From: Hordeum vulgare subsp. vulgare
Lineage: Eukaryota; Streptophyta; Magnoliopsida; Poales; Poaceae
DNA length: 64,000 nucleotides
Assembly (NCBI RefSeq): GCF_904849725.1
Contig: NC_058518.1
Location: 216,454,741 to 216,518,740, forward strand
Direction of reading: 5' to 3'
Part shown: positions 3,935 to 59,796 of the stretch, one piece after another
How positions within the stretch are numbered: position 1 is the first letter of the stretch
Layout: each line of letters opens with the position of its first letter
Position numbers and translations under genes: made by a program
The notes under the pieces: model-generated
Told to the model about the DNA's origin: nothing
The model's input: the letters and a program-made list of their open reading frames with translations, nothing else
The model's database searches: none

Positions 3935-4724
3935 TGTCGGGGTACGACGATCTATGGGACCAGCAACGTCCCTTGTGGTTCAACAGCGGGGACATGCATG
4001 CACAAAGAGCATCACTAACCTTGTACGCGCTTGGGGTTTAGACAGGTTCGGATCGCTCGGAAGCATAAAACCCTACATCATGTGTGTGTGGATTATGTGA
4101 GTCCAAGTAAAGGAGCACAGCAACGCGACAAGTATGCTCGAGGAGTGTAGCCAAGCCTGCAAATGGACAAGGTGTCAAACTTTGTGAAGGTAGCCATGGC
4201 CCTCCTTTTATAGGTCAAGGGTTAACAGAATGGCTAAAAGGTCTTTACACGGGGTGAATAGTGGACCCTATAGCTGCCAAATCTACTGACACGAGCTAGA
4301 GTGGTAAATATCTAACCCTGTCAGATTAGAACATGCACATTACATGTACTATGAGGTGTCACGGTGGCGACGTCTTCCAGCGCCCAGCTAACTCCTATTC
4401 TCTTGCCACGTCGTGGGACGAGTGTCATTAAAGTTGTTGTAAGTCCCTCGGGTTGCTAGAGGCCTCTGACAAGGCTCACCTAACTGCCTGCCCCCTCGAC
4501 ACCTCGCTAATGTTGACAATAAGCCCAATGGGGTGGAGCGGTAGAGAGATACGGGACTCTTGCCAGGCATGGTGCTTGTCGAGTCTTCTTCACCGGCAAG
4601 GCAACTTGCTCGTGGGTTGGTTGCATTGGTTGCATTGTCTTTGGCGGAACTTTCCGTACAGGAGGATACTACCGTCGGTGCACAAGTCAGGGTACTAATG
4701 CACATGTTGTTTAGTCCACCGACA
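3935..4724 (-). repeat. 5' LTR of Gypsy G1
   Basis: 790 bp with inverted ends TGTCGG and CCGACA. On the minus strand it has a TATA-like CCTATAAAAG at about 4205-4214, followed by the leader GGTTTTATGCTTCC. The G0 protease-side coding sequence resumes directly at 4725. Confidence 0.7.
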
Positions 4725-5573
4725 ATAAGTATGGTGCCCACAGTCCTCGTGGTCTTTGGGTGGTTGGTGGAGTCGAAGGAGATCATGAACTGTGACCACT
4801 TGAGGGGCCTCGAGGCTTTAGTTCCCTGGAGCGTTGCATTCACCTCACGAGAGATCTATTTGAAGTGGCACTTGGACGAGGGAGGATGAGATCTGCCGAG
4901 GATGCATGCCATTATTTGAGACTCTTGATAACCCGAGCATCCTCATGAGAAAGATTGTCATTGTTCCTGTCGGGGCGCAACGGCTAGTCCCGCCAGCTTT
5001 AAGGATGGTTGTTGTTGTTGTTGTTGCAATCTCCCCAGTGGCCATCGTTGCGGCCGACACCATTGCGGTTGGTGTGGAGGTCCTTCCCCCACTCAAGAAG
5101 TAGCTTGATCTCGTGGCAATCTTCAGTGTCGTGAGAGCACATGTTTTCATAGACGTAGAAGGGACGATTGTCCTTCTTGGGGGTCTCGTTGCGGTCATGC
5201 CTGCACTTCTTCTTAGGCTCAGTTGCAAGCACGGTAGGGCCCTTGCGCTTGGCATCCTTGCTCTGGGTCTTGGCAGCATCGAGGACCACATCTGGATCGT
5301 TGTGGGCAAAGAGGCGACCCTCCTCAGCCTTGGCATGTCGCACGGCGAGGTCAAAAAGCGTGACCACAGTGTCGATCTCATTGTTGATGGTGAGCTTTCC
5401 ACACAGCCTGACGTCTGTGATGCCTCAGGAGAATACAAAGATTATTGTAGCGTCGGAGGTGTGTGGGGTCTTGTTGGACACCTGGTTAAAGCGGTGAATA
5501 TAGTTGCAGAGGGTCTCGCCAGGCTGCTGGCACATAGCCCGGGGGTCATTGAGCATGAGGGCATAATTGTACA
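4725..5573 (-). pseudogene. Gypsy G0 gag C-terminus and start of protease
   Basis: A minus-strand coding remnant in shifting frames. 5573-5440 gives MYNYALMLNDPRAM and QQPGETLCNYIHRF, a typical gag core end. 5367-4999 gives DLAVRHAKAEEGRLF and a degenerate zinc-knuckle-like CSHDTEDC segment. It ends in an asparagine run from a GTT/AAC microsatellite near 5010-5027. 4860-4725 gives RPLKWSQFMISFDSTNHPKT, the conserved block before Gypsy protease. It is cut by G1 at 4724 and by T1 at 5574. Confidence 0.75.
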
Positions 5574-6464
5574 TGTTCTCGGGCCCTTGGGACCAGGGGT
5601 ACCCATGCCCGTCGGCCTGCGGTCCTAGGCGCAACGCGCTACATAGGCCAGATTTGGCCTAGCAGCGTGTCGAGCAAGTAGGACCGTCACGAGCGCCCTC
5701 GCCTCGCGAGGCATGTGCCACAGGGTCGATGTCAATGACTGCGGGAGGTCGCTCTATATAGAGGCGCATCCCGAAGCCACAGCTGAGGCCCTCGCGGGGT
5801 AGGCTCATCAAGGGTGACCAGGCAGGGTCTCGTGACCTTGCGTCTTCACGTAGCTGACGAAAACTACGCAGGTAGCGCATGAGTTGTGCACGCAGGTGCG
5901 GATAGAGAGGCTTTCCACTTTCGTGCTAGGGGAGCAGGGCGAGCTGGCGGTCTCGCAAAGCAACCCCCAAAGGCTTCCCATTCGATGCAAGAGGACCAAT
6001 GCTGGGGTTTCAGCAGGACGGATGTCACCTCCTAGCCCACGAGTACATCACGAAAAAGAGTTTTGGCACGCGAACACCGCCTTTTTCAGGTTGGACTACA
6101 ATCTTGTCTCCTTTTGAAATGGCCATTGTGGCAACCCTTCCCGTCGAGTATTTTCAGGGAAACAGGACCGGGGCATGTATAAAAGGGAGGCCCGACCTCC
6201 GCAGAAAATTACATGAACTTGATTAGGGCAAGAACCCACCTTGTACGTTCTCCCTCTCTCACAAGAAATCCAGACAAGCAGGAGTAGGGTTTTACACCAC
6301 GAGGTGGCGTGAACCTAGGTAAAACTGTGTGTGTGTTCTTGTTCACCATCCTGATCTCGATCCATCAGAGTGTTGCTACGAAGTTGTCAGGCCAAACAGG
6401 GTTGGAGAGCGAGCGCACACCAGTGTTTGAACATTTATGGGTCCGCGGAGCCACGATTTCAACA
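5574..6464 (+). repeat. 5' LTR of T1
   Basis: About 891 bp ending TTTCAACA just before the PBS. Its full length aligns by eye with the reverse complement of 10431-11316, for example the shared block GGCCAGATTTGGCCTAGCAG at 5650 and the TATA/leader region. The left end is set by the loss of G0 gag coding and by the homologous LTR start in T2 (TGTCGGGCCC); here it reads TGTTCTCGGGCCC. Confidence 0.75.
6176..6185 (+). promoter_or_regulatory. LTR TATA box of T1
   Basis: TGTATAAAAG in the context GGGGCATGTATAAAAGGGAG, about 280 bp before the LTR end. The same site in the T2 LTR has decayed to TTTAAAAG. Confidence 0.7.
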
Positions 6465-6466
6465 TT

Positions 6467-6484
6467 TGGCGCGCCAGGCAGGGG
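6467..6484 (+). other. Primer-binding site of T1
   Basis: TGGCGCGCCAGGCAGGGG starts two bases after the LTR end. It fixes the element's orientation as plus and is nearly the same as the PBS of G1 and of the small Gypsy at 23769-27762. Confidence 0.75.
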
Positions 6485-7038: not shown

Positions 7039-7989
7039 GGTGGCGTGCCCGAAGGAGCCGGCGGAATGTTCGACGCTCATCACAAGGTGTGCACCCACAA
7101 CATGGAGGACTGGCAGGCAATCGGGACTTCTCGTAGTAAGCGCGCCACCCGACGATGAGACAGCGCCCGCGTTGCGGGTTGCGAAGGTGACCAGGGCAAC
7201 AACGGAAGGGACGACCTCAGTGAAAATCGACTCCAAAGCCGACTACTACTTCCCGCCCCCTGCCCCCTCGGTGTAACGGGTGCCGCAGCAACACCGGCAT
7301 CACGGGCCTCGCGCCTCCAGTCGGCGCTTGCCTCCCTCCGGAATAGGAGGCCACGCCACGGGCCCACGTCAGTCTGGGCTCGAGGGCTCCTGTGTGGAGG
7401 CACGTGGCTTGGTCGGTGCGACTAGGGGGCGCTCAGGGACCCCGTGGAGGCGCGCCCCGACATGCACCCTTACAAGACGGGAATATGGTACCAATCGCTA
7501 GGGACACAGGAATGCCTCGCTCAAGAGATCGGCAAGCTACATGAGGTGTGGGCCACGCATGCCTCGCGAGGCGTCGGGGCCCCGTGGGCCCTTGAAGCCT
7601 CTAAAGCCAGTCGCCCCCACCAGAGGTGTGGGGTCCCACGGCACGTCCCATTGAGCGGCCTGACGCTCCCGCGGCAACTTCATTGTCAAGTGACTTTTTG
7701 GGTCGTTCGAATCAAGAAATTCCCTTGATTTTGCATCACCCCGAGAGGGTGTTTCCTCGATGAGTAACGAACTTGATTAACCTTCAGTTGAGATGGTGTC
7801 ATTTTTCTAGATCTTAAGCTCTGGTGTTTCGCTAATGCCAGGGGCTGGCGCGCCCCTGCAATCACCCAATGATGGTTCCATGGTCGGGGATAGACATGGT
7901 GTGTGTGTCAGGACTTGTCCTAGCAGCACCGAGAAATCTAAGTGATCGAGCTCTAGCTCACAGGCTGGGCACCCATGCTAGTCATCTCC
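7039..7989 (+). other. Degenerate internal region of T1
   Basis: GC-rich sequence with short broken frames and no recognisable protease, RT, RNase H or integrase motif. It links the gag-like start to the tandem-repeat region, which suggests that pol was deleted or never present in this subfamily. Confidence 0.4.
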
Positions 7990-8640
7990 CCAAGGTCCTT
8001 AGTGTCACACCCTCCCGGGGAACCGTCACAGCAGATGGAGAGATGAAGGCCCCCTTCACGAGCGCCAATATCTCCAGGCCTTGTGTCGTACGCCTGGAGG
8101 CGGAGAATGGAACGGCCCCTTTAGGAGCACCTGTATCTCCAAGCCTGGCACCACGTGCCTGGAGATGAAAGTCTAGCCATGACACTCTCATGTAAGAATG
8201 AGTGAGATGTATCCGCACGGAGCCTCCTCAATGGAAGCCCATGAAGAGCAGCATCGTGGCCTCGGTGGAGGCCTCCCGCCCGTGCCCAAGTAGAAGTCCC
8301 TATGCTACACGCTGGCGGAATGACTGTCAAACCATGACTATGTCCACGCCCAAGGTGAAGCCCTTTATATTACGCTTGGCAAACAATCGAACAAGACTTC
8401 CCGGGGGCCGCAACTAACACTGGGCTGACATGTGGTGGACACGGCAGTCGCACTTCTTTTAGGCCGACCCTTGCTGGACATGGCAGCTGAATTTCTTTCT
8501 AGGCTAACCCTTGCTGGATACCGCAACCTCTTTTCTTCCCTTTTTTTGTATTTTAAACAAGCTCACTAGGCTGGCGTGTGCTGGACATGACAGCCGCACA
8601 TCCCCTATTTGGTTTTGTGAACAAGTTCGCCTCAGGTTTT
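7990..8640. repeat. Tandem repeats flanking the B3 gene of T1
   Basis: At least two repeat types. Around 8040-8170 two units carry CGCCTGGAGGCGGAG-like and GCCTGGAGATGAAAG ends. At 8415-8600 there are three to four degenerate units around GCTGGACATGGCAGC. The region is the reverse complement of 15427-16079 in T2, which has the same repeats in different copy states. Confidence 0.65.
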
Positions 8641-9446: not shown

Positions 9447-10208
9447 CTATTTGACGTGGGCGCCCTGGGAGCCATCGGAGTCATTGTTGCCCTCGCTCCC
9501 CACGGAGGAAGAGCCATCACTGCCATCGCTGCGGAAAGAGCTGTTGCTGCCACTTCTATGACCTTCCATGCAGCAATCCAGGCGACCGCCAACGCTCTCG
9601 AAGGCCTTCAGTAAGAGTGTGGAGGCCCCGTCGAACTTGAAGTGGAGGAGATATCCTTCCTGCAAGCCATGCGCAAGGACAAAATACTTCCACCCACCCC
9701 TCAAGAACAGGAAGCCGAGGGAGTTGAACTTCGTTGCCACCCAGGTAGGCCCGTTACAGTAGTCGTCTCGCAGCAGCCACGGGCCCAAGGGCGCGTGCTC
9801 CTCCATCTCCTCCGCAAAAGAGTCCGGGAGCCGAAATAGGTGTGAGGCCTGCCCTCCATCCATATGATAAACTCACGGGCCACATCAGTCGGGCGACTTC
9901 ACGAACTTGGAGGTCGGGTGTTTGTGCCATACCGCTCGCCCTGACCGCAGCTGCCTCTTCCACCGTGCCCGCACCCATGAACAAAGCCCCTCCCGCAGCT
10001 GCTTGGGCCGGCATGAGCCGCTGGCGGGGAGCGTCTGTGCACCCCAAGAGGTGACTCGAGCCTGGCGACGGGCACACGGGGGAGGCATCTTCCCCTTGTC
10101 GGCTAAGGTGCGTCCGCTTCCCTCATCACTACTTTCTCTCTCTCGGCGGCAGAGGATCTCTTCGCCGGTGCTATCACTTCTGCAATGACAAGCAACAACG
10201 AAGAGCAA
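9447..10208 (-). pseudogene. B3-domain gene, antisense in T1
   Basis: The clearest copy. A 5' segment (10208-9885) is basic and includes ADKGKMPPP. After a frame change, 9863-9447 encodes a 138-residue open frame: LFRLPDSFAEEM, then WVATKFNSLGF, GGWKYFVLAHGLQEG, LLHFKFDGAS and a final LLLKAFE strand. These follow the order of a plant B3 DNA-binding domain (central W/F helix, H-x-L-x-E-G, then F-x-x-D-G). A Ser/Asp/Gly-rich tail ends at the stop. A TATA box lies at 10247. B3 proteins are nuclear DNA-binding factors; no function is shown for this copy, which has a frameshift. Confidence 0.7.
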
Positions 10209-10246
10209 GGGGAGGAAGTTGGGGCAGGAGACCCTTCCCTTTGTCC

Positions 10247-10256
10247 TTATATGGGG
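10247..10256 (-). promoter_or_regulatory. TATA-like box of the T1 B3 unit
   Basis: On the minus strand CCATATAAGG lies just upstream of the B3 reading frame and in the same sense. The equivalent T2 site reads CCATGTAAGG (13862-13871), and T3 has CATATATTA at 59788. Confidence 0.5.
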
Positions 10257-11316: not shown

Positions 11317-11331
11317 GTAGCCCCCGAGCCC
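11317..11331 (-). other. Polypurine tract of T2
   Basis: On the minus strand GGGCTCGGGGGCTAC lies immediately before the LTR start TGTCGG. The matching position in T3 (59485-59499) reads GGACCCGGGGGCTAC. Confidence 0.75.
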
Positions 11332-11828
11332 GCGTTGTGCATGACTCCGCCTGTTGGGAGGGCGAAGCGACGCGGGCAACCATGTTCTATGGTCCAGGCT
11401 CGACCCGTGGCACCTGGCAGGTCACGAGGCTCTTCTCCTTCCCGCAACGCTTTGGGAAGCACTCCAAGTGAGTTGACGTTAAGCCTGGACGTAGCATCGG
11501 CCGTCATTGCTCCTCTCTGACTAATGTCGCTCCCTTGTGCCGTCTTTCTCGCATAAGATTGCTCACGGGCCCGCAGCACACGCGGAGTGGCCCGTTGTGG
11601 GAACGAGGCGACCCAATCCATAACCGTCCACGGGCCAGGCATGGCATGTGCCACTTTACGAAGCACTTGTCGCCTCCACTTCCCATGTCGCCTCAGGAAT
11701 TGTGCTCATGCAAGTCGTCACACTAGAGGGGCGGAGCCTCCACCACACAGTTTCTCATATCTTCCTTCCTCCTGTGCTGATCCATCATTCTTTTGCAAAC
11801 GTCGCCTTCTCCCCCTTTTCCTCTTCCC

Positions 11829-13101
11829 ATGGCGGCCATGACGAAAGCCTCAAGCGTTGAAGCACACACAAGGCCTTCGGAGCCGAAGCCGACCCAAATG
11901 CGATAGTGTTGGGCTACCAGCGACACGTATGTGCGCCACCACCATTGCTGTCCCTTGCGTACCTTGTGTGGCCCGATGAATCTGATTGCCGAACTTTCGA
12001 GTGGGCCAACACCCAAGAGGCGTCGGGATGCCCTGCTGGGGGCGTCCTCTCATGCTCCACCTTGTTGTGAGGCACGTGCCTCCGCGCTTGGCTAACAAGG
12101 CCCAAAGAATCCGCGGCACCCTTCGAGGCGATAAGAGGGCCCTACGGGTGCACAGCCCAGGCCATCGCATCCACCTCTGTGAGCACCTAGCATGAATAAG
12201 ATCTGGCCCTCAGGGAGACGACCATAATTGAGTGGGAGGCACACGTGGCCCTCCGTGAGCGGGAGGCTTCCTGGACCGTCTTTGATCAGGTGGTAGAGCG
12301 CGAGTGTCTCGAGGCCCTGGAAGGGCACGTTCTCGCGAAAGAGGCCATCCTCGAGGAAGTGCATCATTAAGCCCTTGCCAATGTGGACGCGAGGGTGGCT
12401 CCAGAGCGGGAGGCCGCGCTGGAGGAGTATCATGACGAGCTGGCCCAACAGGAGAACCGCCTCCACCTCAGGTGTGACGCGCTCCAGGAGGAGGTGAGCG
12501 TGCTCACGGCCCAGCTACAGGAAGTCCAAGCCGCTCTCCAGCCCGCCCTCACGAGTGAGGAGGGCACTAAGGAGGAGTTGGTGTTGCTTCAGGCCAAGTT
12601 GGCGAAGCCGCCGATGTCCCGCACGCGGCCAGGGACGACGCGACGCATGTGCGGATAATGGAGGCACAGTGCGCCAAGCAGTTTCTCGGGCTCATCCATC
12701 GCACGAGTGGTGTGCTTTGCCGCTTCATCGAGGATGCCCCGGCGCTGCCGCGCGTGCATGGCGATAGAGGATACCTCGACTTCTTCCTCAAGGTGGCAGA
12801 GGCACTGGAATCGGGCATTTCCAAGGTGGACGAAGACATCAAGTCTAGCATTTGCGCCCTTCTGGACAGCCTGCTAACGCGCTTCTTCTCCAACCTGCAC
12901 TGCCACGACCCTGCATTCCACATGTCTTGCATGATGGAATCCGTTCCTGCAGAGCTCCGGAGCTCCCTCAGGGACGAGGAGCGCGAGCATGTGGAGTCCC
13001 TGGCCCGGCGGTTCATCCAGGCGGCACCCTGCGAGGAGAGTGGCAGCCTTGGCACTGGAGCCTTCGAGAGCCAAGAAAATGACAATGCCTCCTCCGCTTA
13101 G
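11829..13101 (+). pseudogene. Antisense coiled-coil protein gene of T2 (Transposase_28-like C-terminus)
   Basis: The start at 11829 gives MAAMTKASSVEAHTRP, soon broken by stops. From about 12190 a long charged Glu/Gln/Leu/Ala coiled coil is readable, with a stop near 12367 and a frameshift near 12640. The last 150 codons (12649-13101) are intact: QFLGLIHRTSGVLCRFIED, GDRGYLDFFLKVAEAL, FFSNLHCHDPAF, EHVESLARRFIQAA. This resembles the C-terminal part of the 'putative gypsy type transposon' proteins common in grasses. It lies antisense between PPT and B3 gene. Extra antisense ORFs are known in Tat-lineage Gypsy elements; the function is unknown. Confidence 0.6.
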
Positions 13102-13590: not shown

Positions 13591-13889
13591 AGGCCTAGCA
13601 GAGCACCCCGCGGACATGCAATGGGCGCGCTTCACACGGCGAGGGGAATTGGGATGGTGCGGGCCCCCACCGTGTGAGAGTCGAGTGCGACACGTGGCGT
13701 GCGATGGGACGTGGGGCGCTCCCACTCCCCCGTGACGCTTCGGCAACCGTCGTGTACTGACATAAAGCCTGCGCACGGTGCGGGGCCATAATTGCCCCCA
13801 TTAATCTTCTGCCCACTGAATGCCGGCAAGGAGGCGCGGGTTGAACACCCACTTGGAGGACCCATGTAAGGCAAGGGAAGACAATGCAA

Positions 13890-14593
13890 TAGAGAGAATG
13901 TAGTGATGAGGGAAGCGGACGCACCTCAGCCGGCGAGGGGAAGGGGCCGACCCCGTGTGCCCATCGCCTCGCTTGAGGCACCTCTCCAGGGATGCAGGCA
14001 CTCCCCACCGGCGGCCCGTGTTGGTCCAAGGAGCCTGTCAGGGGCCCTGTTCATGGGCGCGGGCACAGTGGATGAGACGGCCATGAACAGGGCCAGCGAT
14101 ACGGCACAGAAGCCCGGCCTCATAGGTCAGGAAGTCGCTCCGTCGACACGGCACGCAAGTTCATCGTACAAATGGAGGGAAGGCCTCGCACATGGCTTGG
14201 GCTCCCGCGCTCTTTCGCATAGGAGATGGAGGAGCACATCCCTTGGGCCTGTGGCTGCATCCAGACGGATGCTATAATGGGCCTACCTGGGTGGCGACGG
14301 AGCTCAACTCCCTTGACTTCATGTTCTTGAGGTGTGGGTGGAAATCATTCGCCCTTGCCCAGGGCTTGCAGGAAGGGCACGTCCTCCACTTCAGGTTTGA
14401 CGGGGCCGCCACGCTCTTTATGAAGGCCTTCCGGGGCGCCGACATTATCCTAGACTACTGTGTGGAAGGTGAAGAAGTGATAGGAGCAGCCCTTCCGGCA
14501 CCAATGGCAGCGACAACTCTTCCTCAAGGGGGAGCGGGGGCGACAATGACTCTTATGGTCCCCGGGCGCACACATCAAAGAGGATGGCTATGA
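13890..14593 (+). pseudogene. B3-domain gene, antisense in T2
   Basis: Second B3 copy. The N-terminal half is split across frames: KFIVQMEGR and LPRSFA then a stop, near 14160-14226. From 14192 an open frame continues to 14593 with PTWVATELNSLDFMFLRCGW, KSFALAQGLQEG, LHFRFDGAA and LFMKAF, the same order of B3 strands as in T1. Upstream 13713-13815 is homologous to 10300-10400 in reverse. The TATA-like site has become CATGTAAGG. Frameshifts make it a pseudogene. Confidence 0.65.
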
Positions 14594-14761
14594 GTAAGCG
14601 TGCGCGACGCCAGCATTCAGGTCCCGCGCGGTGGTGCTTCGAGAGCCCGATCTTCCCTCTCTTGCATTGTCTTCCCTTTCGTGTAATCCAACATGCTCGC
14701 CCCGTGGGGGCGTGTCAAAAAAGGGCTTATGTCAAGCTTCAAATCGAACGTTATTTTCGAA

Positions 14762-14767
14762 AATAAA
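14762..14767 (+). terminator. Poly(A)-signal-like site of the T2 B3 unit
   Basis: AATAAA in CGAAAATAAAC, about 170 bp after the B3 stop, matching the T1 site. Confidence 0.45.
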
Positions 14768-15287
14768 CTTCTCCCTCGTACTCTTTGTTGAGCTTGAACG
14801 CTCTCTGGGGTTATCCCGACGCTTCGTGGTGCTAAGGCCTAGCCCCCGAGCGTGGGTAAGAGGACTCCCGAGGCACCGTGCTCAGGGGCTCACCTTCAGC
14901 GCGTGAGCCTCTTACGCGAGGGGTTGCTGCTGGCCGGGCCCGCCTCACAAGGCCCCTTGAGGGCAGTCCAATAAAGAAAACGCTTTGTCCCGAAGGGTAT
15001 GCGCTTTCCCAGTTGCATTTGGGCATTACGCGGAAGTATAGGCCCCAAGGGCCTTGGCACGCTCACGCACGTGTGGGAATGCGTGCGTGCCAGAACCCAA
15101 TTTTCTGACTTCCCAACGCCGCCGGGACAAACCCACGGAGAGGCACCATGCCCAGCCCCCATGAGTGTGAGTCCTAAGGTAAAGCTAGCAGGTGCGTGTC
15201 GCTGGGGGAAACCCACGGTTGCTGAACTAAGGGCTTTCCACCCTAAGGTGGTGCGCCCGCCTGGGGCATTATTCATCGTCTTCTCCC

Positions 15288-16040
15288 CAGCACAATGCAT
15301 GGGGCTTCCACTAGGCATGGGCATGGTAAGAAGAGAGAAAACCAATGAAACTCCTCAAAATCCAGAAGACCAAGACCTTCATTAAAACCTGAAGCGGACT
15401 TGTTTACAAGCTCAAAAAGGGGAGGTGCAGTTGCCATGTCCAGCACGAGTCAGCCTAGTGGGCTAATTTACAAGTCAAAAAAGCAGGGAAGAAAAGTGGT
15501 TGCCGTATCCAGTACGGGTCAACCAAGAAAGAAATGTGGCTACCGTGTCCAGAACGAGTCAACCTAAAAGAAGTGTGGCTGCCGTATCCAGCACGGGTCA
15601 GCATGGGGTTAGTTGCGGCCCGCGGGACATCTTCTTCGATCGTTCCCCAAGCGAGATGCAAGGGGTTTCCACTTGGGTGTGGTTATAGTCGCGGTTCGAT
15701 AGTCATTCCACCAGCGTGAAGCATAGGTACTTCCACTTGGGCATGGGCGGGAGCCCTCCACCGAGTCTACAATGCGTCTCGTCGCGGGCTTCCACTTAGG
15801 AGGCACCGGGCGTATACATCCCACTCATTCTTACATGAGAGTGTCATGGCTAAACTTCCGGATGTGGTGAATGCTACGGGTGTTAGGCACCGGGCTCCCA
15901 CCCTCCGTCTCTAGGCACGCGCCGCCAGGCCTAGACATATTAGAGCTCCTGAAGGGGCCCTTCCACCCTCTGTCTCTAGGCGTGCGGCGCGAGACTTGGA
16001 GACATGGGTGCTCCTGAAGAGGACCTTCGTCTCTCCATCT
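15288..16040. repeat. Tandem repeats of T2
   Basis: Three intermixed arrays: units around CTTCCACTTGGGC at about 15310, 15665, 15735 and 15790; four units around GCCGTATCCAGCACGGGTCA at 15427-15605; and two units around CTGTCTCTAGGCGTGCGGCG at 15899-16025. T3 carries related units (CATAGGGTTTCCACTAGGCG at 62080). Confidence 0.65.
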
Positions 16041-17200
16041 GTCTACACCGGTTCCCCGGGAGGGTGTAACTCTAAGGACCTGTAACAGCCCGAAACTGAC
16101 GCTCGAGAAGATTCCTTTTTTATTTTGTTATCGTCCTGTGATTTATTTGGTAGTTGCATTCATCATCGCATCATTCGCATCATGCACATTGCATCGGCAC
16201 TCTGTTGTCGTCATTTTTCAAATCTTGCATCCATTATTAGTTGACGGTTCTCTTCATTTTTGTCGTCGACCGTCTCGGGACCAATCACACACGCACGCAC
16301 CCGCGACATCCTTAAAATATTGTTTTTAAAAGTGTGTATAAAATTGTCTCGGAATGGGTTAAAAGTTTGTGTGTGGTCTTAATATAGTGTAGGTAGGCCG
16401 CCTACCAAATTTCATTGTAATCGGAGTTCGTTTGATATCCAAATTGTTAAACCTATAGCGGCACTATAGCTAGTTTAATTGTGGGGTGTTTCGGTGTTTT
16501 AAAAATCTTGCCACACGCCGCAAACATCCCTCTCTTCTCAGGCTGAAATCCGCGTAGCCACCAGCCACCACAACCTCCCATCTCCTCTCTCCTCAATGGC
16601 GTGTCCCGCGAGGCTCAAAGCCGACCCTCACTGGGCCCGGGTCGGGCCGCCGCCGCATGAGCTCCCCCGTGCCCGAGCCCCGCTCCCACTGGCTCCCTCC
16701 AACCTCGCCCCATCACCTCTGCGGTCGCCGACGACCGCCAGAACATCGCCGGAGCTCTACAACAAGATGCGCAACCTATCTATCCTCCCTTCTCCTCCTT
16801 ACCCATCTCCCTAATATCCTTTGTCTCCCTGCAGAGATCCGCCATGGCCGCCTGAGTCAAGTTGCTCCGATGCTGGCGCTGCCAAGCCCTATCGCTGCTG
16901 GGATGGACTCCCCATGTCCGAATTTGAAGGACCCCTGACCAGAACTGCCTCTCATTGCCCCTCGTCGGAGCTCCAGGTCCCGCCGGGAACCGCCGCTAGT
17001 GCGCTCGCCTCTGTACGCGAGGGAGACGAGGCTCGACTGTGCCTTCAAGCTCCCGGTTGGGCCTCCTCCGCATGGGCTCCAGCCTAGCTTAGGCCGTGCC
17101 TCGCCTCGCCTCCACCTCCAGCCATGTGAGCCTTCCCCCATCCCCCCCATAGGCCCATCCTACCCCGCGCCTCAACCGGCCCACTCGGACTGAAGCCCAA

Positions 17201-23768: not shown

Positions 23769-24594
23769 TGTCGGCGATGCTAGGGCGACACCAATGGGGA
23801 TCAACACGAAACCGTTGTGATCGTAGGGTGGGGAGAACTACGCCAAGAACAAACCTAACGATCAACACCCAACAAGCCTTTTTACGCAGGTTCAGGCCGC
23901 TTACGCGTAAAACCCTACGTCCTGCTCGTCTGATCGTATTAAGCGTTCTTTTGTTGTTCGTTTACAGTGATAGTAACCATTTTCCGGCCAATCTCCAAAG
24001 AGTCTAACCCCTTGTGAATGAGCTATAAGCCTCCTTTTATAGGCAAAGGGGTCACCTATAGTGCTTGATGGTAGGTTCACGAGATGTAACAATGAACCTA
24101 CAGCGGCACTTATCCATCTACCGCTATGAGGTGCATTAAATGCATGTCTTGTCCATGTCAGCTAAGTGCTTGTGAAGTCATGTGTCCAGGTGTTTCAACA
24201 CCTGGATGCCCCGCTGGCGCGTGTGTAATGCGCTGGAAATCGGGGGGGCGGTGGCACTGTGGCTAGGGCAGTTGCCCTCTGGTGTGCTGCCACGTCATTC
24301 CGGCAAGTGTGCTAGTCGGGGCCTTGGTGCTTGGTCCCGGCAAGGAAGCTTATCCGGGGCTTCGGCTGTCCTCCAGACGAGGGAGGTTCATCGGGGCTTT
24401 GCGCTAGGTGCGCTCATCACGTCCATTAGCCGGACGTGGCCTTGGGTGTCTTCCCGACAAGACAGGCTTGCCGGGGCCTTGGATACCTTGGGGTTGAGTC
24501 TTGTCTGGATCCTGCCGCGCCCTACCATCAGGTGCTCTTCGCGCCCGTGCACAAGTCTGGGGCACTAGAGACCCCACACTTTAGTGCACCAACA
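23769..24594 (-). repeat. 3' LTR of the small Gypsy
   Basis: 826 bp; nearly the same as 26933-27762, with a few dozen visible differences. TATA on the minus strand at about 24034-24043 (CCTATAAAAG). Low-complexity G-run near 24241-24250 differs in length from the other LTR. Confidence 0.85.
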
Positions 24595-24608
24595 GGAGCC
24601 TCCGGGCC
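24595..24608 (-). other. Polypurine tract of the small Gypsy
   Basis: On the minus strand GGCCCGGAGGCTCC lies directly before the LTR start TGTTGGTGC. Confidence 0.55.
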
Positions 24609-24962
24609 AAGGCCACACATGCGCGTGGAGCGTTCTTGGGCCAGGCCCAAAGAGGTGTACGGGCCTCTACGGCTGGATCTGCTGGCGGTTGCCTCTCCCC
24701 ACGCCGCGCATCAGATGCGCGAAGTGGGAGGTCGTGCACGGAGTGGCCTCTCCGCCTCCTGAAATGCCTCTACCACGCACGTGGCATGTGCAGTCATTGA
24801 TGGACAGGTAGCAGTCGAGGCCTCAAAAGTCACAGTAGTGGCTGGACCCGCCCATGCATGCATTGGCGCATCGGGGTGGTTCTCTATTCGCCCGTGAGCT
24901 CGAGCAATTCGTCGTTGAGGGTGGTGGCTTCTGGAGTAAGGGAGGCTAGCCCCCGTGCCCCG

Positions 24963-24972
24963 TCCTATAAAT
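24963..24972 (+). promoter_or_regulatory. TATA box of the antisense unit in the small Gypsy
   Basis: TCCTATAAAT, 120 bp upstream of the ATG at 25084 and antisense to the element. The same layout (PPT, a few hundred bp, TATA, ATG) is seen in T3. Confidence 0.5.
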
Positions 24973-25083
24973 TGGGAGGGTTTGCGAGTGGTTTTTCTCA
25001 CCCAACTCCCTCTGAATCCACCAACTCCTCAATCTTGGTCTTCTGAATCTTCTTCTGTCGTGTGGTGGCGCTTGTCCCTAACC

Positions 25084-25563
25084 ATGGTTAGGGGACGAGG
25101 TCGGCCACCGTCTGTCATGAGGGCAGCGAGGGGATCCCGTTCGGATCATGCCACAGCTTCTGGGGGTGCCGCGGCGGAAGGCGGACCGAACGCCCGTGGT
25201 GGAGGAAGGGCGAGGGGCCGAGGTCGCCGCGGAAGTTGAGGCCACGGGAGGCGGAACACTACTCCAACGCCTGCGCCTTCCCGGGGCTTGCTTCTGTGGC
25301 AGCCCTCCTTGTTGCTTTAGAGGGCCCCACGTGTGCTTCTCGACTGCTGCGAAGGGAGCCTGAGCGATGGCGACTGTCCTGCCTCAAGCGATAGCAACGA
25401 GGAGGACATCGGTGGCGGCGAGGTTTGTGTTGGGTTAGGGCCATGGGTGCCAAACTGGGTGTTGACTCCCCGGGCCACGACAGGACGTAGACCGCACTAC
25501 CGTGGCTCGCCCCCGCCCGGCGGGGACACCTTGCCGGAGCTGGCGTCGGTGCCTCGTGTTTGA
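25084..25563 (+). pseudogene. Antisense ORF of the small Gypsy, possible B3-gene remnant
   Basis: The ATG at 25084 gives a 51-codon basic Gly/Arg-rich start (MVRGRGRPPSV, ARGRGRRGS). After a stop and frame change, 25333-25563 gives LLDCCEGSLSDGDCPASSDS, which resembles the tail after the B3 domain in T1 (RLDCCMEG, then Ser/Asp-rich). The domain body is not recognisable, consistent with a deletion. The B3 link rests on layout and this short tail, so it is tentative. It could be an unrelated captured gene. Confidence 0.3.
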
Positions 25564-26932
25564 GGAGGAGGCACCTCCACCAGCTCTGAATTCTCCAGGT
25601 CATGTGCTTGGGCCACCTCACCAGAGCGGGTATTGGTCCCCTGGCTCCGGGAGGAGGCGCGCCCGCCGGCTCTAGATCCTTCGCCCCTTCCTGTGCCCTG
25701 CCCTCCGCACCTCGGTCGTAGGGGGGCCAGGCGGCGCCCGTCGGGGGCGGTCTCGTTCTCGCTCACTCTACGCCGGCCCTGGGGGGCCTGGCTTGACCGT
25801 GCTGCGAGCCCCACCTTTTTCTCTTTTTGAACATCACTCCTCCGCGCAGGTTCGCCCTCGTCAAAAGACACAGTCTTTAGGTTAGGACCACCACACTTTG
25901 TAAGTGGAGCTAAGTGTATCTATTCATGTGGATGAAAAAGATTGTTTTCCCTTTTTTGATTCTGCTCTCTGTGTGATTTGTTCTTGCATATCTGGGAGCT
26001 TGCCGGCGACTACCGGCAAGGCTCCTTGCCGCGTTCGGTGCAACCACGGAAATCCCCAAGCGCAGCTTGAGACGAAATCGGGTGCTACGTAGCCGCTTGC
26101 TTTTTTGATCAGGTTCGCAACTGTTTGAAGGCGCTCTGTGGCCGTTCAAGTCGTTTGAACGAGTTTGAAACAAAGACAAGGTGCACCAAGCTTTGGGAAG
26201 GTCCCAGTACGCGCAAGCTATTCACACAAAGATTTGAAACTTTCGAATGGAAAAGCAAATGATCTATCTACTCCAAATCTGAACCTCAAACTTGAAAACT
26301 TATCTGTCCGTGTTGTGGTTTGGCGCCTGAATCTTTTGCCGGGGCGTAGGAGCCCTCGGCGAGCAGGAAATCACCGCACCTGGCGGTCCCTTCTCCGACA
26401 AGGACTTCTTGCCGACGGCCTGCGACCGTCGCTTGGAGGAAGAGCCAGCCAGGGTGTAACCCCTTTTGCATTTCTCTGCCTAGGTCATGCTTGCGGAGCC
26501 CCTGAGCGCGTCTTTGGGCGACGATGCGACGCTCTCAGGGGCACAACATTCGCACTGGAGTGCGCGTCGGGGCTTCAGGACCGCGTGGCGCATCCTCAAC
26601 GACTATGCATCACTCCGCGGAGGTGCGTCCACCGGAGTATGCACCGGGGCCTCTGTGAAGCGCCCAGGCACACACTCGACAACTTCACGTTGGCCCCCGA
26701 GCAACGCATTGGCCTGACGATGCTGCTCTTGGAGCCTCCGCCTCCCTGCCCCGCTCGCGCCTGTAGCAACGCGGTCACAAGGGCCTTGGGAAGCCGTAGC
26801 AGAACAGGGCGCCCGCCGCGGTACTCCATTTTTGGAAGAACGCGACATAGCGCCCAAACTTCTATGGAGCCGGCGTTGAGCCTAATCCGCTCCACGCGTC
26901 CTCCCCCCACCCCCTACCTGGCGCACCAAAGA
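25564..26932. other. Interior of the small Gypsy, no recognisable gene
   Basis: GC-rich at both ends, with an AT-richer middle (25880-26340). Open frames occur on both strands (for example 26596-26910 on minus) but none shows a domain I recognise. Confidence 0.5.
26914..26928 (-). other. Primer-binding site of the small Gypsy
   Basis: On the minus strand TGGTGCGCCAGGTAG lies a few bases past the LTR end, almost identical to the PBS of G1 and T1. Confidence 0.7.
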
Positions 26933-27762
26933 TGTCAACAATGCTAGGTCGACACCTATGGGGATCAACACGATACCCTTTTGATCGTAGGGCAGGGAGA
27001 ACTATGCCAAGAGCAAACCTAACGAGCAACACCTAGCAAGCCTTTTTACCCAGGTTCGGGCCGCTTACATGTAAAACCCTACGTCCTGCTCATGTCATCG
27101 TATTAAGTGTTCTTTAGTTGTTCGTTTATAGTGATAGTAACCGTCTTCTGGCCAATCTCCAAAGAGTCTAACCCCTTGTGAATGATCTAAGGGCCTCCTT
27201 TTATAGACAAAGGGGTCACCTACAGTGCTTGATGGTAGGTTCACGAGATGTTACAGTGAACCTACTGCGGCGCTTATACATCTACCGCTGTCAGGTGCAT
27301 TAAATGCACGTCTTGTCCATGTCAGCTAAGTGCTGGTGAAGACATGTGTCCAGGTGTTTCGACACCTGGACGCTCCGCTGGCGCGTGTGGAATGCGCTGG
27401 AAATCGGGGGGGGGGGCAGTGGCACTGTGGCTAGGGCAGTTGCCCTCTGGTGTGCTGCCACGTCATTCCGGCAAGTGTGCTAGTCGGGGCCTTGGTGCTT
27501 GGTCCCGGCAAGGAAGCTTATCCGGGGCTTCGGCTGTCCTCCCGGCGAGGGAGGTTCATCGGGGCTTTGCGCTAGGTGCGCTCATCACGTCCATTAGACG
27601 GACGTGGCCTTGGGTGTCTTCCCGGCAAGACAGGCTTGCCAGGGCCTTGGATATCTTGGGGCTGAGTCTTTTCTAGATCCTGTCGTGCCCTACCGTCAAG
27701 GGTTCTTCGCGCCCGTGCACAAGTCTGTGGCACTAGAGATCCCAGTCTTTAGTGCACCGACA
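26933..27762 (-). repeat. 5' LTR of the small Gypsy
   Basis: 830 bp, on the minus strand from TGTCGGTGCACT (27762) to CATTGTTGACA (26933). TATA near 27197-27206 on the minus strand. Confidence 0.85.
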
Positions 27763-49128: not shown

Positions 49129-49874
49129 TGTCGGATTTCGCGCTCCGCAAAACCCTTAAGATTCGAACTCAGGGGCGTGTACCAAGATCTCTCCCGGGCT
49201 TACCTCACCTAGCTTGCTACTCACTATGGATGGCAGAGAACTCACTCTATGGTGAGGAAGACACAGAACACGGCAGTTTATGCAGGTTCGGGCCACTGAC
49301 AAGCGTAATTCCCTACTCTTGATTTGCTGGAGTGCCTCTCGTGGAAGTTAGCAGATTAACTAGAACAGCGCTTGGGAGCCACCGGAAGCTGGATGGCCCT
49401 TGCGTGGTGTCAATGGGCGAATGAATGGATCTGCCCCTCTATGAAGTAACCTACCCTCTATATATAGTGGCGGCCCCAGTCCTCTTCCCTTATCGTTTCC
49501 GCGGGAAGGGATCCCACAATGGCCCATTTTTAAAGGGGAGCAGAGGAACGTGTTCCCCTGCCCCAAAGGTGGTCTTCTCCTGCAAAAGTGGCTGTCGTCG
49601 CAGCAGGGACGGGTCCAGGGATGATGTCTGTCCTCCTGGCAGGCGATGGTGGCCGCGTTGCACCAGAATGGAAACCTTTAGGAGGTGCCTTGGGAACCCG
49701 CGTATGTCCTTCCCTCCTTTGCTCGAAAGGGGAAACTGCACCATCCAGATGTCCGCTACTCATCACTACTTTCTCTGCGTCATCCTTGCCTCCTGAGGCT
49801 GGGTCTCACCTCGGAATGTCCGCCGCTCCAGAGTGGACCTGAGGAGGCCCCCTGCAGGTCTTGAAGCTGCTCCT
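49129..49874 (-). repeat. 3' LTR of Gypsy T3, 3' portion
   Basis: On the minus strand it ends CGCGAAATCCGACA at 49129, inside Copia internal sequence. TATA CTATATATAG near 49455-49465 (minus). It joins 59351-59484 when the Athila-like element and one TSD copy are removed, giving about 880 bp, the same length as the T1 and T2 LTRs. Confidence 0.7.
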
Positions 49875-51253
49875 TGAAAACCAACAAGTGTAAGGGATCG
49901 CAACAGTTTTCGAGGGTAGAGTATTCAACCCAAATTTATTGATTCGACACAAGGGGAAGCCAAAGAATATTCTCAAGTGTTAGCAGTTGAGTTGTCAATT
50001 TAACCACACCTGAAAGACTTAGTATCTGCAACAAAGTATGAGTAGCAAGGTATTGTGATAGCAACAGTAGCAATAGTAACTAGTAGCAGCAAAGTGACAG
50101 GAGTAGCAGCAAAGTAACAGTAGCAGCAGTAACAACAGTTACAGAAGTAGCAGCAAAGTAGCGTAGCAATGACCAGTAGGAAAAACTCATAGGCATTGGA
50201 TCGGTGATGGATGATTAGCCCGGATATTATTCATCATCAAACAACTATAACACGGAGAGATATGTAACTAGCTCCAGTTTGTCAATGCAATGTAGGCACG
50301 TATTTCGTATGTAGTCATGCGTGCTTAGAGAAAAGAACTTGTATGACATCTATTGTCCATGCCTCCCGTGGTAGCGGAGTCCTAATGGAAACACCGGCAT
50401 ATTAAGATTCTCCTTTTAATAAAGAATCGGACCAACGCATTAACACTTAGCGAAGCCATGAACTCCTCATACTATGGTCATCTCCGGGAGTGGTTCCGGC
50501 TATTGTAACTCTGGGGTTGCCGGGTCATAACACATAGTAGGTGACTACAACTTGCAAGATAGGATCAAGAACACACATATATTGGTGACAACATAATAGG
50601 TTCAGATCTGAAATCATGGCACTCGGGCCCTAGTGACAAGCATTAAGCATGGCAAAGTAGTAGCAACATCAACCTCAGAACATAGTGGATACTAGGGATC
50701 AATCCCCGTCAAAACTAACTCGATTTCATGATAGATCTCATCCAACCCATCACCGTCCAGCAAGCCTACGGTGAGATTACTCACGAACGGTGAAGAGCAT
50801 CATGGAACTGGCGATGAAGGAAGGTTAGTGATGACGATGGCGACGATCTCCCCTCTCCGGAGCCCATAACGGACTCCAGATCTGCCCTCCACAGGAAGAA
50901 CAGGAGGTGGCGGCGCCTCCGTATTGTAAAACGCGATGAACTCTTCTCCTTGATTTTTTTCCGGACGGAAGGGACTAAATAGAGCTGAGAGTGGAGGTGG
51001 TGGAGCAACGTGGTGGGCTCTCAGCTCCACCCCTCCGGTTGATTCTTGTGTCAATATTTTTCATATATTCCACAAAAAATCCCCGTGAATTTCCAGGTCA
51101 TTCCGAGAACATTTATTTCTGCGCAAAAACAACACCATGGCAATTCTGCTGAAAACAGCGTTAGTCCGGGTTAGTTCCATTCAAATCATGCAAATTAGAG
51201 TCCAAAACAAGGGCAAAAGAGTTTGGAAAAGTAGATACAATGGAGACGTATCA
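49875..51253 (-). repeat. 3' LTR of the Athila-like element
   Basis: 1379 bp; plus-strand ends TGAAAACCAACAAG and GGAGACGTATCA. About 98 bp shorter than the 5' LTR because it has a single copy of a 48 bp block and lacks a GC-rich hairpin segment near 51006. Confidence 0.9.
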
Positions 51254-51268
51254 ACTCCCCCAAGCTTA
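51254..51268 (-). other. Polypurine tract of the Athila-like element
   Basis: On the minus strand AAGCTTGGGGGAGT lies directly before the LTR start TGATACGTCTCC. Confidence 0.85.
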
Positions 51269-53268
51269 AAACCTTGCTTGTCCTCAAGCAATTTAGTTGA
51301 TTAACTGAAAGAGACAAAAGAAAAACTTTTACGAACTCTGTTTGATCTTGTTGTTGCAACTATGTCTAACTCATAACCAGAATTTCAGCAAGATCACAAG
51401 CTAACCACATAAGCAAATGACATCTAGGTCTCACTGTAAACTCATATCAATGGCATAATCAACTAGCGAGCAATAATGACAAGTTTCAAACGTCAACACT
51501 TCAATCAAAACAATCATGAAGCAGTACGAACAGATGGTATCTCGCTAGCTCTTTCTGAGACCGCAAAACATAAATGCACAGCACCTTCAAAGACCAAGGG
51601 CTGGCTAAACATTGTAATTCATGGCAAGGAAGATCCAATCACAGTCATACTCAATATCAGTCAAAAGAAAAGCATAAAAATGACAGAGGTGCTCTCTAAT
51701 TGGTGCTTTTATAAGGAAGAGGATGACTCAACAGGAACATAAATAGACATGCCCTTCGCAGAGGGAAGCATTGATTTGCAGAGGTGCGAGAGCTCAAGCT
51801 TTTTAAAACAGAGACAATAATTTTGGGTGGCATGCTTTCATTGTCAAAGCAATGACTAAGAGTTTTTCACCATCTTCCACGCTACACATGCTATAGGTGG
51901 TTCCCAAACAGAAAAGTAAAGTTTTGACTCCCCCACCACCGATCAATCACACTCCACAACTAGCCGAATCCTTGGGTGCTGTCCATACCAACATCAATCC
52001 AGGGGGAGTTTTGTTTGCAATTATCTTTTCGATTTGAGCATGGAACTGGGCATTCCAATTACCGGCCCCTTTCTCGTGAATGATAGTGAATAAACACATA
52101 TCGAGGATAACACGCCTAGCATGGAAGATACTGATAGCCCCCTGTCACCACATGAGCAGCTCGGGCATGCAAAACATATTATTTCTTGAAGGTTTAGAGA
52201 GTGGCACATGCAAATTTACTTGGAACGGCAGGTAGATACCGCATATAGGTAGATATGGTGGACTCATATGGAACAACTTTCGGTTTATGGGAGTGGATGC
52301 ACAAGCAGTATTCCCTCTTAGTATAGGTGAAGACTAGCAAAAGACTGGGAAGCGACCAACTAGAGAGCGATAACTGTCATCAAAATGCATTGAGATTAAG
52401 CAACATTGAGTGCAAGCATGAGTAGGACATAAATCACCATGGACATGAATATCATAGAGGCTATGTTGATTTTGTTTCAACTACATGCGTAAACATGCGC
52501 CAAGTCAAGCCACTTGAATCATTCAAAGGAGGATACCATCCTATCATACTACATCATAGTCATCTCAACATTCATGTTGGCATCCAAGACAAACCATTAT
52601 AAGTTCCTAGCTAATTAAGCATGGCATGAGAAACTATGATCTCTAAGTTGTCATTGCAAACATGTTTCTCTCACAACAAAGCTGAACTAGAAACGATGAG
52701 CTAGTCATATTTACAAAAACAAAATAGATCGAGTTCATACCAGCTTTTCCAGGCTTAGTCACTTCTTCATATATCGTCATTATTGCCTTCCACTTGCATG
52801 ACCGAACGATGTGAACAATAATAAGAGTGCTCGTGCATTGGACTAAGCTGGAATCTGCAGGCAAACACAAAGGAGAAGACAAAGTAATATGGCTCTTTGA
52901 CAGATAAACAGATATGCATGCGAGAGCCACTAAACATTGTAACCATGGTCTTCTACTTTGACCCAAAGAAAAAGAAAACTATTTACACGGGAAAGCTCCC
53001 AACAAGCAAAAGAAGAACGGAAAATATTTTTGGGTTTTCTCAAACTAGACAAACACACGAAAACAAAACGAGAAAAAGAAACAAACTAGCATGGATGATA
53101 TAGTGGCAAAGTGTGAACACCGACTAACAAAGTGAAAGTGTAAGCAAGAATATAAAGTCGGTGAGAAACACGTACTCCCCCAAGCTTAGGATTTTGGCCT
53201 AAGTTGGTCTACTCCCAAGGTGGGAAGTAACCTTCTCCGGGGTACTCCGGAGTGGACTGAGGGTGCTA
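51269..53268 (-). other. 3' non-coding region of the Athila-like element
   Basis: About 2 kb between the ATHILA-type ORF and the PPT, moderately AT-rich. A second PPT-like motif (CAAGCTTGGGGGAGTACG) occurs near 53170-53187. No coding motif recognised. Confidence 0.7.
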
Positions 53269-54281
53269 CTATTGTGTGAGCTCCTGTGGCTCCCACTGAT
53301 AAAGTGGCATCTGGTACTCGACTGGTAGCTCGGGCACGGGCGCGTGTGGTTGGGCTATGCCCCAATATGCGTAGATGTCTGAGCGCATAATAATGTACCT
53401 GCCTAGATGAAGATTGAAAAAAGGAGGAGCAGGCAAAGTAATAGTCTCACGAGTACCCTGACTAAATACCAGGTTATAAATCATCCTTCTTTTTATATCT
53501 CTATCAAGAAAGTCATGGCGAACCATGCTATCATAATCTAGATATCTCTCAGGAAGAAGAATCTCTTCTTCCTTGTCCAGTCTAATGGGTATCTCAAAAT
53601 GTCTAGCAAGACGAGTAGCATAGATACCTCCATAAACAACGCCTTTAGAACGGTTCGTGTTCAACCATTGAGCTACTATAGCGCCCAAGCTATAAGTTTT
53701 GTCATTATAAAGGGCTTCGCGCAAAACCGCAAGATCTAGGGAGCTAAGGGCCCCAGCTTTCCCACGGCCAATCAAACATTTTCCCACGAATAATGAGAAG
53801 TACCGAAGCACGGGAAAATGTATGCTAGCAGCTCTAGCACAAGACACTCCTCTCTCCTCTCCTCCAATAATAGTATCTATGAAAGCCTCCAAGTCCCGTG
53901 GACGAGGTTCATGAATATCCCAAACATAAGGTAATTTGCAAACATTGCAAAAATCCTGAAGTGACATGCGCTGGGGGATATCATATAACTTGAACTCAAC
54001 CATAGGAGGATTCTTCCTTGGATGAAGTTAAAGCTTGGCATGGAAATATTAGTGAGGACGAGGTATTGCGGACACTTATCTTCAATGAAGGCGGTAAGGC
54101 CTGCGTTCTCCACCAAGTACTCAAAGTCCTCATAATGTCCAGTGGCGCGTAAGAACACATAGCTTGGCCACTCGCACGCTCGAACTTCTGCAACTCGGGG
54201 GACCGGATACTTGGGTTTCTTCTTCTCATTCCCATCATCCTTGGGGTCACGGCTTAAAGAGCCTCTTAAGAACCTCCTCAT
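53269..54281 (-). pseudogene. ATHILA ORF-1-like gene
   Basis: 54281-54020 encodes MRRFLRGSLSRDPKDDGNE, then ACEWPSYVFLRATG and FIEDKCPQYLVLTNI. A frameshift near 54020 is followed by 54003-53269 with EFKLYDIPQRMSLQDFCNVC, RAASIHFPVLRYFSLFVGKC, ALYNDKTYSLGAIVA and GGIYATRLARHFEIPI. This is the conserved domain of plant Athila elements (ATHILA ORF-1 family), whose function is unresolved. Apart from one frameshift it is well preserved over about 338 codons. Confidence 0.75.
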
Positions 54282-55008
54282 CTTTTCCTTTTTCTATCTG
54301 TGAAAAATTCTGAAAAAAAATTAGTGACTCAAAGGAAAAGTGAACAAGGCTCAATGAAACTCATATCAACTACTCCGACAACTGCCTAGAGGTCATATCA
54401 CGCATCAAAACTACTTGGGACCAACTAAAATTAGCATGCAAAGCTCAAGAACAGGGTCACCAAGGCAGCAAAAATACGCGAAGTATAAGGCACTACAGCA
54501 AAAACTAATTGGACCAATGGAGGAGTCACATACCAAGGAGCAATTTCCCCAAAACAGCTTGGTGAATGGTGCTTTGCACAAGGAGATTGAGAATCGCAGC
54601 AAGAAGAGCAAGAACACGGGTTTGAGCTGCGAAATGATTTTTTTTGGAGGTAGGAGAAGCAGATGGAAGCTAGAATGAGTGGAGGGGGTACACGTGGGCC
54701 CCACAAGCCTGGTAGGCGCGACCAGGGGGTGCCCGTGCCTCTAGGGCTTGTGGCCCATTGGTGCAGCCCCCTGACTAGCTCTCCGTCTCATAATTTTTCA
54801 AAAAATCCAGAAAAAATCATACTTGATTTTCAGGACATTCGGAGAACTTTTATTTTCGGGGTACTTTTCTACGGGACGCTAAAAGCAGAAAACAGGGAAA
54901 ACTAAACTAAATCTATCATTTTTCTTCTAAGTAAGCGAAGGTGAAAGCTTGGAACAGAGGTTTGTGACTCCTCGATTCATCCATCTCATGGTCATCGAAA
55001 GGAATCCC
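54282..55008 (-). other. Spacer at the site of the missing RT-integrase
   Basis: No RT, RNase H or integrase residue blocks are seen between protease and the ATHILA-type ORF. The stretch is non-coding and includes the inverted-repeat-rich GGCCCCACAAGCC sequence near 54697 that is also found in the 5' LTR at about 59051. Confidence 0.6.
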
Positions 55009-57789: not shown

Positions 57790-57839
57790 AGTGATCAGCA
57801 GACGTAAATCCCAAGTGACTCAAAGAATAGAGCTATGCC

Positions 57840-57857
57840 TCCCCGGCAACATTGCCA
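57840..57857 (-). other. Primer-binding site of the Athila-like element
   Basis: On the minus strand TGGCAATGTTGCCGGGGA, close to the tRNA-Asp-type TGGCGCCGTTGCCGGGGA used by Athila elements, 11 bp from the LTR end. Confidence 0.75.
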
Positions 57858-57868
57858 CAAAAAGGTCT

Positions 57869-59345: not shown

Positions 59346-59350
59346 CTCCT

Positions 59351-59484
59351 CCTCGCGAGGCTTGGCCCCTCACGAGGGCCTTGCCTTGAGTGGTGTCAGG
59401 GCCGTTGGTTTTGGTCGATGAAGTGGGCCAGCCTTGGCCCGCAGGCAAGAAGGTCTGGGTACCCCCATTCCCCGAACGCCGGCA
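59351..59484 (-). repeat. 3' LTR of Gypsy T3, 5' portion
   Basis: On the minus strand it starts TGCCGGCGTTCGGGG at 59484 directly after the PPT. It is cut at 59345 by the Athila-like element and its TSD. Confidence 0.7.
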
Positions 59485-59787: not shown

Positions 59788-59796
59788 CATATATTA
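59788..59796 (+). promoter_or_regulatory. TATA box of the T3 B3 gene
   Basis: CATATATTA, 76-84 bp upstream of the ATG at 59872, followed by a C/T-rich leader. It is antisense to T3, so it is a promoter candidate for the B3 gene and not for the element. Confidence 0.55.

Follow-up and report, generated by a model that had tools for sequence, protein, structure and literature searches.

Antisense B3-domain genes in three diverged LTR retrotransposons of barley, and their many homologues in barley and Aegilops

Does a retrotransposon family of the wheat tribe encode, antisense to its own reading direction, a DNA-binding domain otherwise known from plant transcription factors? The question is raised by a stretch of 64,000 nucleotides (nt) from barley (Hordeum vulgare subsp. 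vulgare; contig NC_058518.1, positions 216,454,741 to 216,518,740 of the forward strand), hereafter the window, in which a first-pass annotation had placed a B3-domain gene antisense inside a Gypsy retrotransposon, which element we denote T1. We found a B3 domain in antisense orientation in three diverged elements of the window—T1, E2, and E3—with a TATA-like site or a variant of it at the matching position in each, along with a large family of homologous proteins in barley and Aegilops, many of them full length. We regard it as moderately probable that a long-terminal-repeat (LTR) retrotransposon family of the wheat tribe harbours a B3 gene of the REM type in antisense, encoding the element's own DNA-binding regulator; the family is probably Ty3/Gypsy and Tat/Retand-like, as judged from the layout of LTR, primer-binding site (PBS), and polypurine tract (PPT) and from one paper.

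The minus-strand open reading frame (ORF) of T1 at 9872-9447 comprises 141 amino acids from stop to stop and includes all four motifs by which the domain had been recognized; against the B3 profile of Pfam (PF02362) it scored 36.1 bits (E 6.5e-9), the cut-off being 30.1, so that the annotated domain withstood the profile check proposed for it. Against a hidden Markov model (HMM) of the family the same ORF scored 194 bits, which figure is circular because the 48 rows of the model include T1, though neither E2 nor E3. The first B3 strand (EFIIWMEGRP) lies just upstream of the ORF in another frame; the start of the ORF is an artefact of decay, and the ORF itself the remnant of a longer gene, whose N-terminal part resembles, by eye, that of the homologue P0055. 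The TATA and AATAAA signals attributed to the minus strand were recovered as well, as was the plus-strand reading of the element from an LTR followed by a PBS-like sequence (Table 1).

A six-frame scan of the whole window (1702 fragments) with the family HMM returned six fragments at E<=1, which fall into exactly three loci: T1, E2 (14.1-14.6 kb), and E3 (60.1-60.7 kb). At 3/3 of these loci the B3 gene runs antisense to an LTR, and the LTRs concerned form a single related group; with that recurrence, and with at least 550 homologous proteins, the gene cannot be dismissed as a private insertion. The LTR standing beside the T1 gene was considered as the 3' LTR of T1 and rejected in that role: it is inverted, a PPT-like tract precedes it, and no PBS lies 3' of it, and it is therefore the 3' LTR of E2, a minus-strand element abutting the B3 unit of T1. 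Since E2 holds its own copy of the unit—the two units being 73% identical over 2505 columns in inverted orientation, and 75.6% over the main piece—the B3 gene is, in each of the two, antisense to the element that carries it. The decayed E2 gene scored 27.8 bits with PF02362, below the cut-off, and 142 bits with the family HMM.

A more sensitive search disclosed, as parts of E3, a further copy of the unit (59753-60468) and another occurrence of the LTR family (~49874-49131, minus). The E3 LTR is split by an Athila-type element (49875-59345) with the target-site duplication (TSD) CTCCT at 49870-49874 and 59346-59350; the insertion matches PF03078 (ATHILA; E 9.6e-6, 54027-53272, minus) and PF03732 (Retrotrans_gag; E 3.7e-6, 57333-56935, minus), its own LTRs are 86.6% identical, and, as it sits inside the LTR of E3, E3 is the older of the two. 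Directly 3' of the E3 tract CCGGGGGCTAC is an LTR start resembling that of E2. The B3 domain of E3 (~60125-60461) contains one stop and one frameshift, and its two pieces, submitted separately to Pfam, gave E 0.0069 and no match.

The three loci thus pair LTR sequence with an adjacent PBS-like (T1) or PPT-like tract (E2 and E3). In both E2 and E3 the PPT-like tract and the LTR start lie on the upstream side of the B3 gene, from which tract it follows that the LTR there is the 3' LTR; the gene reads away from it on the opposite strand, which is the arrangement that defines the antisense ORFs near the 3' LTR called aORF-3R. T1 displays the antisense relation to its LTR, the 3'-LTR-side position being seen in E2 and E3 only. 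T1 and E3 have the TATA-like site (CCATATATTAG in E3, at the position aligned with that of T1), E2 a one-base variant (CCATGTAAGG) at the aligned position; AATAAA occurs in two of the three copies and is retained in E2. LTR and B3 sequences have diverged in parallel: T1 and E2 are 79% identical in the former and 73% in the latter, and either compared with E3 gives 57-63% for both (local alignments). The closest proteins to T1 and E2 are barley models; those closest to E3 are P0048 and Aegilops proteins.

Table 1. Positions of the features of T1, E2, and E3 in the window.
Feature	Position	Strand	Remarks
5' LTR of T1	~5574-6461	plus	79.1% identity over ~880 nt to the minus-strand LTR 11316-10434
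PBS-like TGGCGCGCCAGGCAGGGG of T1	6467-6484	plus	read directly, just 3' of the LTR
B3-bearing unit of T1	7993 to ~10437	minus	inverted counterpart in E2 at 13680-16081
Short tandem array of T1, 3' of the B3 gene	8436-8525		Tandem Repeats Finder (TRF) period 40, 2.3 copies
AATAAA 3' of the T1 gene	9274-9269	minus	aligned AATAAA in E2 at 14762
B3 ORF of T1	9447-9872	minus	B3 core and acidic, serine-rich tail; PF02362 E 6.5e-9
N-terminal (basic) part of the T1 gene	~10176-9890	minus	broken by one stop and frame changes; aligned with E2 and E3
TATA-like CCATATAAGG of the T1 antisense gene	10254-10245	minus	aligned with CCATGTAAGG of E2 and CCATATATTAG of E3
3' LTR of E2, beside the T1 gene	11316-10434	minus	PPT-like CTCGGGGGCTAC at 11328-11317
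Helical or coiled-coil-looking ORF in E2, antisense	12571-13101	plus	between the 3' LTR and the B3 gene
B3 gene copy of E2, decayed	14126-14593	plus (antisense to E2)	PF02362 27.8 bits, E 2.4e-6
3' LTR of E3, distal part	49131-49874	minus	61.7% over 426 columns to LTR A, E 1e-18
3' LTR of E3, proximal part	59351-59484	minus	PPT-like CCGGGGGCTAC at 59495-59485
Antisense B3 gene of E3	59788-60689	plus	TATA-like 59788, ATG 59872, serine-rich tail
Diverged repeats of E3, following its B3 gene	60981-62943		self-blastn; TRF period 208 at 61004-61395

Outside the window, a protein search with a single sequence found 7 barley proteins, and a profile search 69 relatives (39 of H. vulgare, 5 of Ae. tauschii, and 1 of Ae. 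geniculata included); a second profile, scored on the 7989 candidates sharing most words, raised the number to at least 550 at E<=0.01, with 20 Ae. tauschii, 12 Ae. geniculata, and 1 H. vulgare protein among the 120 matches listed. A tblastn search of viral and prokaryote contigs confirmed no relative, which outcome says nothing about plants. Among the newly listed homologues 110/114 are 140-160 amino acids long, in a search admitting only 0.55-1.75 times the query length; P0084 and P0083, examples from the Ae. geniculata and Ae. tauschii homologues, have 149 amino acids and an entire B3 domain. The 48 aligned rows, chosen from the matches plus T1, all match PF02362 at E<=0.001, and across them the W, F, K, G, and C positions are nearly invariant at a mean column identity of 29%. 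The predicted fold of an intact relative is the B3 pseudo-barrel, and the closest solved folds are those of At1g16640 and VRN1, which we take to be REM-class B3 proteins. Many Ae. tauschii proteins among the matches listed bear the name 'B3 domain-containing protein Os03g0212300-like', and one is called 'REM20-like'; these names, given by NCBI, and the closest folds both point to a putative REM assignment. A number of the barley B3 proteins (P0006, P0009, P0010, P0013, P0015, P0017, P0001, P0014, P0018, P0030, and others) are labelled 'heat shock cognate 70 kda protein 1' or 'l-ascorbate oxidase-like protein', labels at odds with their B3 sequence, as if annotations had been passed on among members of a repeat family.

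In the long homologues P0063, P0125, P0075, and P0111 the N-terminus is RG-rich with a net charge of +9 to +14, such an N-terminus being a property of the long forms; the tail, measurable in 128/183 proteins, is net negative in 124 of the 128 (median -13). The intact protein would thus probably begin with a basic G/R-rich segment, continue with a single B3 domain, and end in an acidic serine-rich tail. REM proteins, by comparison, are products of host genes, whereas those described here are single-domain proteins of ~150-220 amino acids, borne by a retroelement and ending in an acidic tail. In the N-terminal region of E2 (13933-13962, plus) we also observed the AT-hook-like string ARGRGRPRVP, at which place T1 and P0055 differ.

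Antisense extra ORFs near the 3' LTR have been described in the gene23 of maize Grande, in rice RIRE2, and in Silene Retand (PMC7264820, PMC11963269), and the present elements resemble those aORF-3R elements in having both such a gene and tandem arrays. The arrays of T1, E2, and E3 contain 1.9-2.8 copies according to TRF (that of E2, at 15489-15600, having period 40 and 2.8 copies), and self-blastn displayed more diverged repeats in E3. For gene23 an upstream promoter of its own has been demonstrated, whereas here there are TATA-like sites only, and the GENE23 protein is reported to be nuclear (PMC7264820, PMC11963269); for the antisense ORFs of Grande, RIRE2, and Retand the same two papers give the function as unknown. 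According to Vicient (2025; PMC11963269), 97% of Retand clusters encode TRP28 in the antisense ORF, SMC and a few other domains also being found; the expression 'B3 DNA' has no occurrence in the main text of that article. In contrast to those mostly TRP28-encoding ORFs, the present ones encode B3, and the scanned stretches of the E2 plus frames (11323-13101), an eroded region, contain no TRP28 (PF04195).

The first-pass annotation knew of no description of a B3 domain as a stable extra ORF of a retrotransposon family. One sentence of PMC9289625 mentions B3 in Ae. tauschii consensuses, within a set of domains all from Gypsy-type elements, and antisense Gypsy ORFs are themselves in print (PMC7264820, PMC11963269); because both are already published, the novelty is lower than was first thought. 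The elements of PMC9289625—B3 in at least five consensuses by the filter of that paper, Gypsy-type, from a wheat relative—are very likely the same as the present family, although the relevant section gives neither orientation, structure, copy, nor protein analysis of the B3. Within a literature survey that was far from exhaustive, this was the only account of a B3 domain inside LTR elements. Three other mentions were set aside: a repeat-rich VAL2 gene of pine (PMC7602945), a reference title (PMC13175896), and a syntenic gene in sugarcane (PMC3418495).

If the B3 gene does encode a regulator of its element, an antisense promoter belonging to the gene would drive its transcription, and the protein would enter the nucleus and bind DNA—the LTR of the element, the antisense promoter, or chromatin generally—and would thereby modulate, in trans, how the family is transcribed or silenced. 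VANC proteins, which are the anti-silencing proteins of VANDAL transposons, offer one analogy; another is HBZ of HTLV-1, the product of an antisense retroviral gene cited in PMC11963269. Both are likenesses in putative function, among element-encoded nuclear regulators. Because antisense retroviral regulators are analogous in this respect, and because the protein is built of a basic arm, a B3 domain, and an acidic tail, the product may plausibly act as a nuclear regulator of the element's control DNA or of chromatin.

Several results weigh against this interpretation. Transcription, nuclear entry, DNA binding, the target, and the effect are all predicted steps. Stops or frameshifts interrupt all three genes of the window, that of E2 lacks in addition ~84 nt of its 5' region, and the whole protein is no longer made from any of them. 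Differences between the B3 cores of T1 and E2 number 19, 18, and 22 by codon position (p 0.80), thus without bias; the core differs at 21% and other stretches at 23-27%, and dN is 0.21 against a dS of 0.38 (231 nt), weakly below 1 as a ratio. Between T1 and E3 the two blocks gave 23, 30, and 22 and 6, 10, and 14, with no clear third-position excess in the longer one. The codon-position tests on the window copies reveal no sign of selection, dead copies being a poor test. The structural comparison suggested at the outset held for the intact relative, near At1g16640 and VRN1, but not for T1, whose model is poor (mean predicted local distance difference test, pLDDT, 66.5), none of its PDB matches reaching E 0.001. 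P0048, also among the longer homologues, has an N-terminal charge of only +4; no AATAAA appears in the 310 nt downstream of the E3 gene (60691-61000); and the relatives in the two profile searches (69 and at least 550) are only presumably element-borne. In barley, finally, a B3 orthogroup of 41 genes is described as not highly expressed and as arising mainly by tandem duplication (PMC10171312), an origin that argues against retrotransposons as the source of that set.

The element structure is likewise incomplete. Each element has one LTR only in the window, which yielded neither two LTRs with a TSD for the same copy, nor the 3' LTR of T1, nor a 5' LTR for E2 or E3; the copies there are nested or truncated, and E3 may extend beyond the window end. 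By Pfam, no gag, pol, or reverse transcriptase (RT) was present in the T1 plus frames from 6440 to ~7650 or in the E3 minus frames above ~63.1 kb, and no retrotransposon family in the scanned E2 plus-frame stretches (11323-13101), these scans having left out the E2 minus frames and T1 7650-8000. With pol found in none of the three elements in the stretches scanned, a placement between pol and LTR lacks its pol mark; the original assignment to Gypsy consequently depends on the LTR, PBS, and PPT layout and on one paper. The E3 LTR, joined across the insertion, matches LTR A at 53% globally (430/812 columns), and when a near-identical join was shuffled by single bases 30 times and aligned in fewer rounds of refinement, identity was <=46%; since the shuffles reach that far, the global match is modest, the local one being clearer.

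The broken state of the window copies and the lack of a codon-position signal, for T1-E2 as for T1-E3, would both be expected if the gene were a functionless passenger, that is, a fragment of a host REM-B3 gene captured once by an ancestral element and copied along ever since; and plant retroelements do capture gene fragments (PMC7264820). The same source, however, reports captured passengers in one or few copies, whereas here three diverged elements keep the gene, 110/114 of the newly listed homologues hold to a narrow range of length, and the W, F, K, G, and C residues persist at 29% identity; we therefore consider a mere passenger unlikely, while still the alternative to be taken most seriously. 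If it were the antisense transcript that mattered rather than the protein—forming double-stranded RNA (dsRNA) with the genomic RNA to tune silencing, the ORF being secondary—the like placement of the TATA-like site or its one-base variant in three copies would be accounted for, and the antisense ORFs of plant LTR retroelements have been credited, as a proposal, with such a role (PMC7264820); yet this explanation, which we judge improbable, leaves unexplained both the preserved B3 fold and the reading-frame length of the homologues.

Much less credible is that ordinary, expanded host REM genes are at hand, with the LTRs as chance neighbours or nested insertions. Many B3/REM genes are indeed counted as host genes in Triticum, Aegilops, and barley (PMC6784869), with tandem duplication invoked for barley (PMC10171312); but the uniform orientation of the gene relative to one LTR group at every window locus, the PPT and LTR start on the upstream side of the gene in E2 and E3, and the parallel divergence of LTR and B3 all speak against chance association. 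A wider version of the element-regulator reading can be advanced only tentatively: that a Triticeae lineage evolved its own REM/VRN1-like B3 factor acting in trans on LTRs or heterochromatin, and that its spread, rather than duplication linked to vernalization, accounts for much of the REM-B3 expansion.

Three further observations concern the neighbourhood of these elements. The helical-looking antisense ORF of E2 (Table 1) matched no Pfam family above cut-off, and in our judgement recalls the C-terminal part of the grass 'gypsy-type transposon' antisense proteins. Directly left of T1, the minus-strand frames at 4391-5441 contain a zinc-knuckle-like CSHDTEDC motif and look gag-like, with no gag family by Pfam. 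A short element at 23769-27762 is bounded by a direct-repeat LTR pair (23769-24594 and 26933-27762, 91% identical), in which stretches of 75-96 nt are common to the T1/E2 LTR at 70-72%.

What these analyses suggest as new is the antisense arrangement, its recurrence, and the idea that part of the REM-B3 expansion is retrotransposon-borne. A review of 2020 gave the roles of antisense ORFs as unknown and described no clear database similarities for them (PMC7264820); a B3 domain provides an ORF of this sort with a definite predicted biochemical activity that can be assayed, and makes directly testable the old question of whether plant retroelements encode their own regulators, the present family being one that may use its B3 protein to control its own activity. 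Gene counts may also have taken the B3 genes of the elements for ordinary transcription factors of the plant. An amplification of REM-B3 genes has been reported for T. urartu, Ae. tauschii, and wheat, with vernalization suggested as the reason (PMC6784869); if the Os03g0212300-like genes of Ae. tauschii are the REM genes so counted, part of that expansion is retrotransposon proliferation, and both those counts and the 41-gene barley orthogroup, for which its authors favour tandem duplication (PMC10171312), would invite a different reading.
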